A stretch of DNA of 31,792 bases from a virus. The stretch spans positions 1 to 31,792 of the IMG/VR virus record IMGVR_UViG_3300021197_000113, one strand, 5' to 3'. Positions 1-6,272 of this stretch are shown piece after piece (the first letter of the stretch is position 1; each line of letters opens with the position of its first letter). The position numbers and the translations under genes were made by a program. The notes below the pieces were generated by a model. That model was not told where the DNA came from. It did not search any database and saw only the letters and a list, made by a program, of their open reading frames with translations.

Positions 1-210
1 GGTCATGGGGGCGGGGTAGGTGTCGGATTCTGGCGATTCGTGGGTAAACCTACCAGATAGTCAATTGTTATAACATCTGTTATAACTTTGTAACCTATCT
101 ATTGCGATCACACCTAAACCTGTTAATATGTGAACCATCAAAGCCAAGACCGGTTTGATTGGTTATCGCAACACCATTACAAGTTTGCGCATTTTATAAG
201 GTAACAAGTT
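1..210. other. Left-edge non-coding leader
   Basis: No gene is supported here. The stretch holds one diverged copy of the 20-bp palindrome (67-86) and an AT-rich segment leading to the first plus-strand gene. A weak sigma70-like pair can be drawn (TTGCGA at 102-107, TTAATA at 123-128, spacing 15), but it is too poor to call. A minus-strand ATG at positions 6-4 would start a gene running off the left edge, but the bases upstream of it are C-rich with no ribosome binding site. Confidence 0.5.
67..86. promoter_or_regulatory. 20-bp palindromic element, copy 1 (diverged spacer)
   Basis: GTTATAAC-ATCT-GTTATAAC. Both 8-base boxes are intact, but the 4-base centre is ATCT instead of ACGT, so the full 20-mer is not a perfect palindrome. 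It lies 124 bases upstream of the ATG at 211, much further than the copies in front of later genes. It may be an operator, or a promoter with an extended -10 (TGTTATAAC), for the first operon. Confidence 0.7.
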
Positions 211-798
211 ATGTCAAAGGTAAATGAAGCGAAAGCAATTCCAACCCGTTTTACTCCCGAAGTAGCGGCGGCGATCACTAGCCTAATGAAGGCGACTGAA
301 GCGGTAGACCTTAAAAGGGACAGCGTTATTGATACACTGAGAGGGGCAGGCATCAAGTCTACCGATTTCATCAGCCCAAGAAGTGAAAAATCAACATCAA
401 CTCCCGAATTATACGCGGCGTTCAAGGCGGCTATAGTGAAAGGGTTTCCAGCGGCCAAGCGCAAACTACTGGCCGCTCCGAATGGATCGCTAAGTAAAGA
501 GCAAATGGTACTGCGGCGGGAATACCAGCAGTCTATTGGCGGGCACATAGGTGCATTCAAGCGCGATATAGCGAATAAGGAACCGGAAGGGATAGCCAAG
601 GCCAAGGCCAAGAAGGAAGCCGGTAGAGCGGCTCAACAGCCCACCGGCCAATCCAAGGCGGCAGGATCGGCGGCCAAGGTACTGGAGTCGCTCCAGCAGG
701 CGGCCAAGCGAGCGCAGGCAATCGAAGAGCCGGAGTTTGATGTAGTAGAGCTGATTAACCTGTTAGCTAAGGCCCAGCAGATTGTAGTTAAACACTAG
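211..798 (+). CDS. Hypothetical protein, Ala/Lys-rich, 195 aa
   Basis: I do not recognise a family. The protein is basic and mostly helical by composition. Residues 1-100 look like a compact domain with alternating hydrophobic and charged residues. From about residue 125 to 180 it is rich in Ala, Lys, Gln and Glu, consistent with a coiled coil or flexible basic helix. There is no signal peptide or membrane segment. The start is ATG 211 with a short AAGGTAA-type site upstream. A palindromic element lies 124 bases upstream, and a 47-aa membrane peptide follows 40 bases downstream before a terminator, so the two probably form one operon. DNA binding is possible from the charge, but this is inference only. 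Confidence 0.75.
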   Translation: MSKVNEAKAIPTRFTPEVAAAITSLMKATEAVDLKRDSVIDTLRGAGIKSTDFISPRSEKSTSTPELYAAFKAAIVKGFPAAKRKLLAAPNGSLSKEQMVLRREYQQSIGGHIGAFKRDIANKEPEGIAKAKAKKEAGRAAQQPTGQSKAAGSAAKVLESLQQAAKRAQAIEEPEFDVVELINLLAKAQQIVVKH

Positions 799-838
799 CC
801 ACCACCGGCCAAGGATGGCCATTCAATAGGAGTAAGTT

Positions 839-982
839 ATGAGAGACCAAAATCCAGCCATGAAATATCTGGCTCAGAAACGATTTGAGCAACAGCAATA
901 TGACCGTAGACAATCCATTATATGTTTCACTGTTATTGGCCTTGGCATTGTAGCCATGACCGCTTTTTTCCTAATCGTTTAA
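839..982 (+). CDS. Small single-pass membrane protein, 47 aa
   Basis: This short gene has a good ribosome binding site (AGGAG at 829-833) before ATG 839 and ends at TAA 980-982. The first 25 residues are polar and charged (Gln- and Arg-rich), followed by one hydrophobic segment of about 20 residues (27-47) that reaches the C-terminus. This gives a predicted N-in single-pass inner membrane peptide. The terminator begins 6 bases after the stop, so this is the last gene of the first operon. The function is unknown. Small membrane peptides of this kind in phages include holin-like, superinfection-exclusion and host-takeover proteins, but nothing here decides between them. Confidence 0.65.
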   Translation: MRDQNPAMKYLAQKRFEQQQYDRRQSIICFTVIGLGIVAMTAFFLIV

Positions 983-987
983 TCACC

Positions 988-1012
988 AGCCCCTTTCGAG
1001 GGGCTTTTTTTT
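988..1012 (+). terminator. Rho-independent terminator
   Basis: A 7-bp stem AGCCCCT / AGGGGCT (988-994 with 999-1005) closes a TTCG tetraloop (995-998) and runs directly into eight T residues (1005-1012). It ends the operon of the 195-aa and 47-aa genes. Confidence 0.93.
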
Positions 1013-1030
1013 CGCCTATCAAAAAGTCGG

Positions 1031-4401: not shown

Positions 4402-5658
4402 ATGTTGACTATAGGTAAACAACTTACTGCGGAGGAGCGACTGTCAAAGGCAGTCGTTGCCATCATGGGACACCCGAGATACACAGCACTAGCAGGTGTG
4501 TTGATGATCGGTGAGAAAACTATCGAGGACGATGTACCGACAGCGTGTACCAACGGGCGTGATGTGAAGTACGGACGTGCATTCGTTGACGGACTGACCG
4601 ATGCCGAATTGCGTGGGCTAGTACTGCACGAGGACGAGGGGCACAAGCTACACCGCCACCTTGAGATATGGAAGTGGATGTATGAGATTGATCCGCATCT
4701 AGCTAACTGCGCGTGTGACTACGTTATCAACATCAAGATCGTCGATGACAACAGGCATGACGGGTTCGCCGAACTACCCGAGGGTGGGCTAGTCGATGAA
4801 CGGTTCCGTGGTATGGACAGCGCACAGGTGTTCAACATCCTACGCAAGGAGCAGGACGAGCAGTCGCAAGACGATCAGGGTGGTGGCTCACAGGATAACG
4901 AGTCAGAGGGTGATGGTGAACCTACCAGCTCTCCCGGTGGTGGTAGCGCAGGACTTGACGAGCATGACTGGGAGGGTGCGCAGTCTCTATCCGATGAGGA
5001 CAAGCGTGAGTTGGCGCGTGACATTGACGAGGCTATACGTCAGGGTGCTATGGCCGCAGGTAAGATGGGCGGTACAGGCAACCGCGATCTCGACGAGTTA
5101 CTACAGCCACAGATTGATTGGCGCGAGGTGTTGCGTGAGTTCATACAGAACACGTGTGCAGGTAGCGACTACTCTACATACGCTCGACCCAATCGCAGGT
5201 TGATGAGTCAGGGTATCATCATGCCTAGCGGTATCAGTGAGCAGGTGGGTGAGTTGGTCATTGCCATTGACACGTCAGGCTCTGTCGGACAACGAGAGTT
5301 GACAGCGTTCCTGTCTGAGGTCAAGGGTGTATGCGACACAGTCAAACCTGACAAGCTACGCCTACTGTACTGGGGTAGTAGTGTTGTGGGTGACGAGGCA
5401 TACGACATGCACGATCTAGACAATCTGGTCAAGTCTACCAAGCCTATGGGTGGTGGTGGTACCGATGTCAACTGTGTCACGCAGTACATGACCGACGAGG
5501 GTATCAAGCCTCAAGCGTGTATCGTTCTGACCGATGGCTACTTGTACTCTGGATGGGGTGATTGGACTTGCCCCGTACTCTGGGCGATACTGGACAACAA
5601 GAGCGCAGTGCCCGACGAGGGTAAGGCAGTACACATCAAGTCGAGGGATATGCTATGA
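4402..5658 (+). CDS. VWA-domain protein, DUF2201/CobT-like, 418 aa
   Basis: This is the partner of the upstream MoxR-like ATPase. The N-terminal part has a His-rich HEDEGHKLHRH motif (76-86) followed by ANCACDYVIN (101-110), which resembles the putative metallopeptidase-like domain of DUF2201 proteins, although the His spacing departs from HExxH. Residues 145-200 are an acidic, Gly/Ser/Gln-rich linker. The C-terminal VWA domain has an intact MIDAS: DTSGS (290-294), GGTD (352-355) and LTDGY (376-380). I chose ATG 4402 because GGAGAGAG lies just upstream (4391-4398). A longer start at 4378 would overlap the ATPase gene. The pair probably binds a divalent metal and remodels a protein complex. 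Confidence 0.9.
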   Translation: MLTIGKQLTAEERLSKAVVAIMGHPRYTALAGVLMIGEKTIEDDVPTACTNGRDVKYGRAFVDGLTDAELRGLVLHEDEGHKLHRHLEIWKWMYEIDPHLANCACDYVINIKIVDDNRHDGFAELPEGGLVDERFRGMDSAQVFNILRKEQDEQSQDDQGGGSQDNESEGDGEPTSSPGGGSAGLDEHDWEGAQSLSDEDKRELARDIDEAIRQGAMAAGKMGGTGNRDLDELLQPQIDWREVLREFIQNTCAGSDYSTYARPNRRLMSQGIIMPSGISEQVGELVIAIDTSGSVGQRELTAFLSEVKGVCDTVKPDKLRLLYWGSSVVGDEAYDMHDLDNLVKSTKPMGGGGTDVNCVTQYMTDEGIKPQACIVLTDGYLYSGWGDWTCPVLWAILDNKSAVPDEGKAVHIKSRDML

Positions 5659-5942
5659 CAGCTAGGCTGATAAAGTTTATGGGTTCGCACCCTGAGTTAA
5701 CAACAGGACACATGTACTCCGCGAGGGAGTACGCTAAGGTTGCGAACATCAAACCAAATGCTATGTCTACTAGGCTACACAGGGTGTTGGAGGTGCGTGA
5801 CTCGCATCTGCGCCCTATGTACCAGAACTATGACTACGAGGGCAAGGCTATCAACAGGTCAGCAGATCGCCCGTTGAAGAGTTCTTTCGAGACACATGCA
5901 GAGAAGTTATCAGGTAAATGGTTAAACAGGAGATTGATATGA
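5655..5942 (+). CDS. Hypothetical protein with a possible HTH, 95 aa
   Basis: ATG 5655 overlaps the VWA stop by four bases (ATGA), so translation is probably coupled. The protein is basic. Residues 20-50 (SAREYAKVANIKPNAMSTRL and following) have the spacing of a helix-turn-helix: a helix, a turn near I32-K33-P34 and a second helix rich in Arg. The C-terminal third is polar. If the HTH reading is right it could be a DNA-binding regulator of the operon and a candidate to bind the palindrome, but this is inference. No family is recognised by name. Confidence 0.7.
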   Translation: MTARLIKFMGSHPELTTGHMYSAREYAKVANIKPNAMSTRLHRVLEVRDSHLRPMYQNYDYEGKAINRSADRPLKSSFETHAEKLSGKWLNRRLI

Positions 5943-6151
5943 GCGATAACAATTACAAGCAAGCCCCGAAAGATTGCCTCCGGCATACTGCGGAGGAGAT
6001 GCGTATGGAGTGGGCAGAGGCTGTCAACACTGTGGACGAGGCGTTGGAGTTCTACTATGAACACGTCAGAGATACACCAGTGGACAGTGACTATGACCGC
6101 AATGACGTGGGGACAGTGCAACGTGCGTGGCAACGCGTACAACAGGGGTAA
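5939..6151 (+). CDS. Hypothetical acidic helical protein, 70 aa
   Basis: I chose ATG 5939 because it has ACAGGAG at 5926-5932 and overlaps the previous stop as ATGA. An in-frame alternative at 5918 has no site. The protein is acidic and largely helical (residues 18-45), with no Cys pair or membrane segment. No family is recognised. It belongs to the MoxR/VWA operon. Confidence 0.65.
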   Translation: MSDNNYKQAPKDCLRHTAEEMRMEWAEAVNTVDEALEFYYEHVRDTPVDSDYDRNDVGTVQRAWQRVQQG

Positions 6152-6154
6152 GGT

Positions 6155-6250
6155 ATGGACGATAAAGAGAAAGAAGACTACGGGTATAGAGCACTCGCAC
6201 TATGTGTACTTGTTGCATACCTAGTAGTAAATCAAATGGTAACTAACTAG
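6155..6250 (+). CDS. Very small single-pass membrane peptide, 31 aa
   Basis: ATG 6155 lies 3 bases after the previous stop with a GGGGTAAGG site upstream, and TAG 6248-6250 ends it. The first 9 residues are charged (DDKEKED), followed by about 20 hydrophobic residues (11-30). It is the last frame of the MoxR/VWA operon before palindrome copy 6. Short size makes it uncertain, but the ribosome site and clean topology support it. Confidence 0.5.
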   Translation: MDDKEKEDYGYRALALCVLVAYLVVNQMVTN

Positions 6251-6252
6251 AA

Positions 6253-6272
6253 GTTATAACACGTGTTATAAC
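6253..6272. promoter_or_regulatory. 20-bp palindromic element, copy 6 (perfect)
   Basis: GTTATAAC-ACGT-GTTATAAC, perfect. It ends 21 bases before ATG 6294. The downstream module is AAAACAACTC-GGAG-CAATATT-ATG, slightly shorter than in copies 3-5. It separates the MoxR/VWA operon from the next unknown gene set. Confidence 0.85.

Follow-up and report, generated by a model that had tools for sequence, protein, structure and literature searches.

The 31,792-nucleotide (nt) stretch of viral DNA analysed here (the window; positions 1 to 31,792 of IMG/VR virus record IMGVR_UViG_3300021197_000113) carries in its early region six copies of a 20-bp element of the form GTTATAAC-N4-GTTATAAC, at positions 67, 1162, 1702, 1933, 3266 and 6253 and without a mismatch in the arms. 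The element seems to be the binding site of a regulator encoded at 211-798, whose N-terminal part varies with the palindrome among related phages. The number of copies remains at six when up to three mismatches are allowed, where 0.20 would be expected by chance, and none of 100 shuffled sequences attained it. All 12 occurrences of GTTATAAC in the window are arms of these six pairs, and the exact pattern does not recur in the 11.4 kb by which the 43,165-base virus record exceeds the window. The six positions reported in an initial annotation are thereby borne out; its description of the whole element as palindromic holds for the four copies with the centre ACGT, while in copies 1 (centre ATCT) and 3 (centre ACAT) the arms are palindromic and the centres imperfect. 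The spacing that it described is likewise found: copies 3-6 end 23, 23, 23 and 21 bases before an ATG and share a downstream module, with the exact GGAGCAATA beside each of them, a 9-mer that has no further match in the virus record. The early region contains the following features, in which the copies of the element are listed as putative operators.

67..86, no strand: putative operator copy 1, GTTATAAC-ATCT-GTTATAAC, upstream of the regulator gene
102..129, plus strand: TTGCGA-16-TAATAT, a possible regulator-gene promoter identified by eye; the promoter scan does not list it
211..798, plus strand: 195-amino acid (aa) regulator, candidate palindrome binder from its covariation with palindrome type, directly after copy 1
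988..1012, plus strand: terminator-like stem-loop (988-1005) and T run, after the regulator unit
1032..1405, plus strand: putative origin-like repeat region, with three 35-nt TGATACCAGTT repeats and AATGTTAC repeats, around copy 2
1162..1181, no strand: putative operator copy 2, centre ACGT, inside the repeat region
1613..1640, plus strand: sigma-70 type promoter from the promoter scan, TTGACA-16-TATAAT, 12 of 12 consensus bases, probable early promoter
1702..1721, no strand: putative operator copy 3, centre ACAT, some 55 nt downstream of where transcription from promoter 1613-1640 should begin
1722..1744, plus strand: leader module AAACCAATCGGAGCAATACAGTT with ribosome-binding site
1745..1939, plus strand: 64-aa open reading frame (ORF)
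1933..1952, no strand: putative operator copy 4, centre ACGT
1976..2887, plus strand: 303-aa DUF3150 protein (Pfam PF11348, E 4.7e-7)
3266..3285, no strand: putative operator copy 5, centre ACGT
3309..4391, plus strand: 360-aa ATPase (phrog_1297 ATPase, E 1.4e-49), the MoxR of the initial annotation
4402..5658, plus strand: 418-aa metallopeptidase-like/VWA protein (Pfam DUF2201_N, DUF2201)
6253..6272, no strand: putative operator copy 6, centre ACGT, its sequence unchanged in three lineages that differ in type of regulator or site
6294..7175, plus strand: 293-aa protein, no family match at E<=0.01

The promoter scan of positions 1-7200 returned seven promoter-like sites, compared with 9.2 in shuffled sequences, and the sole match to all 12 consensus bases is that at 1613-1640. 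From this early promoter onward, the four leader sites (copies 3-6) each head a successive cistron group. Copy 1 would centre near -60 of the presumed regulator promoter, with a similar layout, by eye, in close relatives; repeats containing CCAGTT, also judged by eye, adjoin a site in several relatives, distant ones included. The window holds no tRNA and no known RNA family at gathering score. That the element overlaps a -10 box (TATAAC) was ruled out as a general explanation, the GTTAGTG-N-CACTAAC palindromes of relatives having no such box.

Relatives were gathered by the pattern itself and, independently of the element, by the DUF3150 and VWA proteins (best 80 of 142 and best 80 of 343 loci, respectively); the related IMG/VR contigs reach lengths of about 58-65 kb. 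The pattern scan of IMG/VR gave at least 118 stretches with the 20-mer, and, of those listed, blastn aligns 18 with the window and leaves 100 unaligned. The 20-mer by itself is not diagnostic; its distinctive feature is repetition inside one genome. The initial annotation had named, as an outcome that would refute it, relatives that retain the genes and lack the element. Taken literally, many relatives are of this kind, but the position is kept with another palindrome: at orthologous positions, before the same genes, a dozen or so types occur in addition to TGTATACATATGTATACA, ATTAGGTAATTACCTAAT and GTTAGTG-N3/4-CACTAAC, each recurring within one genome. Since these relatives also have another N-terminal part in the 195-aa protein, the loss of the exact element strengthens the regulatory reading.

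Each of 21 records (full or partial) has one palindrome family, with 4 to 16 sites at up to two mismatches; together these amount to 154 sites, 151 at no more than one mismatch and 137 perfect in both arms. The palindrome TGTATACATATGTATACA is found in G002, G003, G018 and G019 (the early regions of G018 and G019 are near-identical, and hence not independent), TGTCTACATATGTAGACA in G017, ATTAGGTAATTACCTAAT in G020, GTTAGGGAATTCCCTAAC in G006, TTCGGGCA-NN-TGCCCGAA in G013, and GTTAGTG-N3/4-CACTAAC in G005, G008, G012, G014 and G015. The half-site GTTATAAC has a spacer of 4 in the window and of 2 in L143 and L147. When a single rule with 7-base arms was applied throughout, at least three copies of one palindrome were present in 120 of 143 family loci, which overlap and are not independent, versus 1 of 100 viral contigs unrelated to the family; with pieces of up to 10.5 kb the figures were 38 of 49 and 1 of 72. 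Fewer than two copies of any one palindrome were found in 17 of the 143. Leader modules, too, are common to different sites. In L088 (L133) the palindrome type is kept before DUF3150 and MoxR, but the ribosome-binding module there is AAACTAACTAAGAGACTAAGTAAAATTT at both; L141 and L213 have a module similar to AAACTAACTAAGAGACTAAGTAAAATTT.

Two members of the regulator family used as tblastn queries had no match at E<=1 in 50,697 sequenced phage records, and a blastn search with window positions 1-8000 gave none at E<=1e-5. The DNA polymerases nearest to that of the window, by coverage and identity, belong to Rhizobium phage RHph_TM3_14A and Pseudomonas phage KPP25 (33-35% identity). The former has five copies of GTTACCT-N4-AGGTAAC in 45.0 of its 60.9 kb, not clearly at gene starts, and in 49.6 of the 64.1 kb of KPP25 no palindrome family exceeds two copies.

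The candidate regulator was picked by eye from an ORF table in which the ORFs of relatives G002 and G001 were set against ten other records; the single early ORF that followed the palindrome in this table was the homologue of window 211-798. The G002 protein is 82% identical to those of G018 and G019, which have the same palindrome, and 50% identical to that of the window, which has a different one. Between the window and G002, MoxR is 98% identical and the C-terminal part of the regulator (C-part) 93%, versus 30% for its N-terminal part (N-part). The corresponding DNA identity is 0.78-0.85 over 121-240, 0.48-0.60 over 281-640 and 0.75-0.90 over 641-800. The small proteins encoded at 5655 and 15252, which the initial annotation had put forward as binders of the element, must be discarded as such: in G002, which has another palindrome, their counterparts keep 93% and 98% identity to the window proteins.

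Homologues of the regulator were collected iteratively by tblastn. Of the 97 loci with a match, 54 supplied a distinct and complete protein of 150-260 aa once duplicates, truncated proteins and those of unusual length had been removed, and these 54 were aligned. All 54 contigs contain a repeated palindrome (at least two copies), and in 47 of them a palindrome of the own type lies no more than 260 nt upstream of the regulator, which suggests autoregulation. No homologue was found by tblastn in G004, G007, G011, G012, G014 and G020: G004, G007 and G011 have, at the regulator position, a diverged or unrelated ORF of 213, 225 and 278 aa, respectively, placed outside all counts, and G012, G014 and G020 show no homologue in the DNA examined. 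It is the first 130-140 residues of the protein that vary; across its last 45, the window shares 91-96% identity with G001, G002, G018, L068, L081 and L088.

The dependence on palindrome type is most evident among pairs with a DUF3150 identity of at least 0.80, although many of the 54 contigs are close kin and the pairs are thus not independent. Mean N-part identity was 0.69 in the 110 such pairs with the same palindrome (lowest 0.40) and 0.27 in the 44 pairs with different palindromes (highest 0.48). The control proteins differed far less between same-type and different-type pairs (MoxR 0.91/0.89; polA 0.93/0.90, from 9 and 10 pairs; VWA 0.84/0.87; the 293-aa protein 0.67/0.71, from 4 and 10 pairs; a 308-aa protein 0.65/0.59), with the C-part of the regulator intermediate at 0.76/0.53. 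In a partial Mantel test of eight alignments only, with DUF3150 identity as the control, the N-part correlated with palindrome type at r 0.45 (p 0.0005) and the C-part at r 0.14 (p 0.015); VWA gave 0.04 and polA -0.10, and the five alignments other than the regulator parts and MoxR stayed below 0.09 and were not significant. On quick trees the palindrome label changes 15 times for the N-part (51 rows, minimum 14), compared with 20 times each for MoxR (50 rows) and DUF3150 (51 rows).

The sites themselves differ in a dispersed manner. Between the window and G002, five of the six palindromes are replaced: copies 3 and 5 differ inside flanks that are almost unchanged for about 40 nt on both sides, copies 1, 2 and 4 differ with more surrounding change, and copy 6 is identical. 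The N-terminal part thus appears to change in step with most of its putative operators, next to genes that remain almost the same. The 64-aa, DUF3150, MoxR/VWA and 293-aa genes of the window, grouped as a regulon in the initial annotation, look like a real regulon with an address that is rewritten between close relatives; the grouping was incomplete, as copies 1 and 2, at the regulator gene and in the origin-like repeats, belong to it as well. The exclusion of the replication block applies to the window and not to every relative, some of which have sites inside ORFs and farther along the early genes. Over all records, 79 of the 151 sites are followed on the gene strand, at a distance of 8-40 nt, by a Shine-Dalgarno-like motif and the ATG of an ORF, compared with 1 of the 151 when the opposite strand is read and 727 of 10,500 positions taken at random; 32 of the 151 lie inside an ORF of more than 400 bases, on either strand.

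Taken together, the palindromes probably serve as operators for a DNA-binding regulator that would control its own gene, has an exchangeable N-terminal domain and would repress the early operon. That the 195-aa protein and the palindrome are a cognate DNA regulator and operator we consider highly likely, given the covariation. In this arrangement the protein would read the 20-mer, with its N-terminal part setting the sequence that is read, and the C-terminal part, on a flexible linker, would probably make the dimer. Such a linker could explain the use of spacers of 3 and 4 within one genome, and of GTTATAAC with spacers of 4 and 2. The sites are found in three places, namely upstream of the regulator gene, in the origin-like repeat region, and 21-23 nt before four successive cistron groups. 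The leader sites lie downstream of the early promoter, for which reason repression by roadblock is favoured: the bound protein would most likely block the elongating RNA polymerase and so turn the early operon down, although as the mode of action we would put this at an even chance. The same block would act on the phage's own genome and on superinfecting phages of the same palindrome. Activation at the regulator's own promoter is possible.

The AlphaFold2 model of the protein (mean predicted local distance difference test score 88.3 for the whole protein and 94.5 for the N-part alone) has an all-helical N-part of high confidence (residues ~16-137), a low-confidence linker (~138-153) and a C-terminal helical hairpin (154-194). 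In favour of DNA binding, the N-part has a median net charge of +7.5 and is positive in 50 of 54 homologues. The family has no convincing Pfam, PHROG or PDB relative. At E<=1 the only Pfam matches of the window regulator were CP12 and DUF3597, both below cut-off; for the 54 members, among the 25 of 42 families listed, the sole regulator family was MarR (one member, E 0.1), and among solved structures a search by sequence gave nothing below E 0.32.

Several observations weigh against an operator-regulator pair. No recognised DNA-binding fold is seen in the N-part: a PDB structure search gave no match at E<=0.001, the best fold matches being at E 1.7 and 2.6 in the PDB and at E 0.024 in a viral library, the latter to an uncharacterised protein, and the best VIA Z scores were 6.7 on the C-terminal hairpin and 4.0 on the N-part. 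These scores are all within the range of common helical arrangements and identify no convincing relative. The PHROG matches annotated as helix-turn-helix (HTH) are weak (6 of 54 members to one family, best 9.4e-4, and one to another, 2e-4). The joint use of spacers 3 and 4 is unusual for a rigid dimer. The site totals given above depend on a consensus that was derived, for each record, from those same sites, and palindrome types were assigned from the same contigs. MoxR itself correlates with palindrome type in the partial Mantel test (r 0.24, p 0.001). Without the limit on closeness, the classes overlap: the 308 same-type pairs have a median N-part identity of 0.44 and a lowest value of 0.17, and the 1,123 different-type pairs a median of 0.25 and a highest value of 0.53. 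The GTTAGTG type changes eight times on the N-part tree and likewise eight times on that of MoxR. It follows from the overlap and from these changes that, at long distance, a similar palindrome does not always imply a similar N-part; the overlap concerns distant relatives, and close pairs, by the identities given above, still appear well separated. Nor is the regulator gene the sole changed stretch, as DNA identity between the window and G002 is low at 81-120 (0.63) and again past position 840 (0.50-0.58). Seven of the 54 regulators have no own-type site within 260 nt upstream, one of these with only 117 nt of upstream DNA, and L025 combines a regulator of the TGTATACA type with an upstream site of the GTTATAAC type.

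The main unexplained point is copy 6, which stays GTTATAACACGTGTTATAAC in three lineages whose regulator or sites are of a different type, namely G002/L030/L119, the G018/G019 contigs, and L011/L049/L113 together with, by its end, L068; the MoxR sites of L011/L049/L113 are of the ATTAGGTA type. In G000, G001, L135, L137, L214, L141 and L215, copy 6 matches the type of its own genome. It may represent an unfinished conversion, a site for a second reader, or one for another phage's regulator.

Could the palindrome act in RNA instead, as a hairpin just before the ribosome-binding site that controls translation or stability through binding of the 195-aa protein or through nuclease cleavage? The short and fairly constant distance to Shine-Dalgarno motifs and start codons would suit such a role, transcription of the leader sites is expected, and the arms can pair with loops of 3-4 nt, whose length varies inside one genome. 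Usually, however, it is the loop rather than the stem sequence that is constant in RNA recognition, and here the constant feature of each genome is the stem. DNA is preferred over RNA because the asymmetric centres are found either way round (AC/GT, AACTC/GAGTT), copy 1 precedes the presumed promoter, copy 2 and other sites lie in non-coding repeats or within ORFs, and G:U pairs are not favoured (3 G:T versus 5 A:C, in the mRNA sense, among 33 one-mismatch sites, a small count); an RNA element is thus improbable. A protein that is mainly an activator or a two-way switch, activating its own promoter from copy 1 and repressing elsewhere, is also on the unlikely side. In its favour, copy 1 does not overlap the presumed regulator promoter but lies upstream of it, an order that close relatives retain, by eye. 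That promoter, however, was itself read by eye and is absent from the list of the promoter scan, the GTTAGTG group has its site farther from the presumed promoter (by eye), and activation would be unusual at the leader sites, which follow the early promoter at distances between 60 nt and 4.6 kb.

The presence of at least one site within origin-like repeats, in the window and in several relatives, would fit partition or origin sites (ParB/parS-like or iteron-like) to which gene proximity is secondary. We hold this to be very improbable in view of the 79 of 151 sites that lie shortly before gene starts and of the accompanying genes. ParA partner PF13614 was found in none of 12 relatives of 58-65 kb, other ParA types being outside this search, and tyrosine integrase PF00589 in none of the same 12, a search that did not extend to the window's record or to serine integrases; from these two families there is no sign of a plasmid or prophage state, and a classical integrating lysogen seems unlikely. 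Swaps inside nearly identical flanks, and leader modules common to different sites, are what selfish short repeats spread by recombination, without a regulatory role, might leave behind. Such repeats would not be expected to prefer gene starts, nor to show their tightest covariation, among the protein parts tested, with one of them, and this explanation is the hardest to credit. N4-type hairpin promoters would go with a giant virion RNA polymerase; no RNA polymerase was present in the 17 proteins scanned with PHROGs, ORFs beyond 28,931 being outside the scan.

An operator-regulator pair of this kind invites comparison with known systems. Phages of the lambda type have CI/Cro with palindromic operators, autoregulation, and immunity groups set by repressor-operator pairs, all of which resemble the present case; their operators are clustered at two promoters and are exchanged as one contiguous block, whereas here five sites over 3.2 kb differ and most genes between them are nearly identical. 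The cluster A mycobacteriophages (L5, Bxb1, TipsytheTRex) have an immunity repressor and stoperators, for which a block of elongation is proposed (PMC9283540, PMC6550527). There, one phage protein acts at genome-specific sites in promoters and short intergenic spaces, as envisaged here (PMC9283540, PMC6550527), and two further features are common to both systems, namely a site upstream of the repressor gene and a motif and repressor that vary among phages. The L5-type sites are there described as asymmetric 13-mers, bound by a monomer, with an orientation that matters and more than 20 per genome. This asymmetric, oriented 13-bp site, a defining feature of cluster A, is not found in our phages, which have palindromes with asymmetric centres in both orientations, 4-16 per record, and arms that can be quite unlike between near-identical phages; nor was a tyrosine integrase (PF00589) found in the 12 relatives mentioned above. 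Cluster A repressors are further described as having an N-terminal HTH and a second DNA-binding domain, for which the present family gives weak PHROG HTH matches and no convincing fold match; the family search detected no relation to them, no direct comparison of the two having been made.

Genome-specific intergenic motifs are also known from the Nostoc cyanophages A-1 and N-1, with 43 and 21 copies, and the authors suggest that these may be stoperators (PMC4916379); the motifs are described as asymmetric, and the passages on them propose no cognate protein (PMC4916379). Closer in form is Planktothrix phage Pag-Yong1 (OL906435; L332), in which 19 copies of GGTTCA-N3-TGAACC were found in the 49.5 of 65.0 kb examined, eight of them 17-22 nt before an annotated start. 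Pag-Yong1 has DUF3150 (28% identity), ATPase and VWA genes and no tblastn match to the two regulator queries at E<=1; its palindromes suggest that the design may extend beyond this protein family. In the open-access library searched, no paper combines DUF3150 and phage, or Pag-Yong1 and cyanophage, and among the best-ranked matches listed nothing is recognisable as this regulator-operator system.

Outside the regulator and its sites, other parts of these genomes are variable. Tail-side proteins and the 308-aa protein vary strongly, and not in step with the palindrome. The 308-aa gene (window 7177-8103) of G001 is only 50-51% identical to those of the window, G002, G018 and G019, most neighbours being far more alike. 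On the minus strand, window 20133-31791 encodes giant proteins, including one of 2241 aa with a DarB-like match; two of these giant proteins are 38% and 45% identical to those of G002, while several replication genes are 99-100% identical. By eye, a conserved G-tract run, GGTCATGGGGGCGGGGTAGG, occupies window 1-22, shortly upstream of the regulator's operator, and many relatives have several G-tracts at this place, which may form a G-quadruplex.

A more speculative reading, which we regard as doubtful, is that of a modular immunity code in a phage family in which no integrase was detected. The N-terminal reading domain, swappable and of unrecognised fold, would be exchanged together with dispersed operators, rewritten one by one in otherwise unchanged leaders, to give at least about 15 mutually blind specificities. 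Through the site that three lineages keep foreign at 6253, a phage could then respond to a rival's regulator in the same cell. If the pairing of regulator and operator is right, these phages would offer a natural series of more than 12 protein-DNA specificity pairs in one protein family, useful for deriving rules of DNA reading and for orthogonal switches. It would also pose the evolutionary question of how near-identical genomes come to differ in five dispersed sites of 18-20 bp and in the matching part of one protein, with much of the DNA between them kept. Uncultured phages without a detected integrase may, in that case, police one another by operator type.

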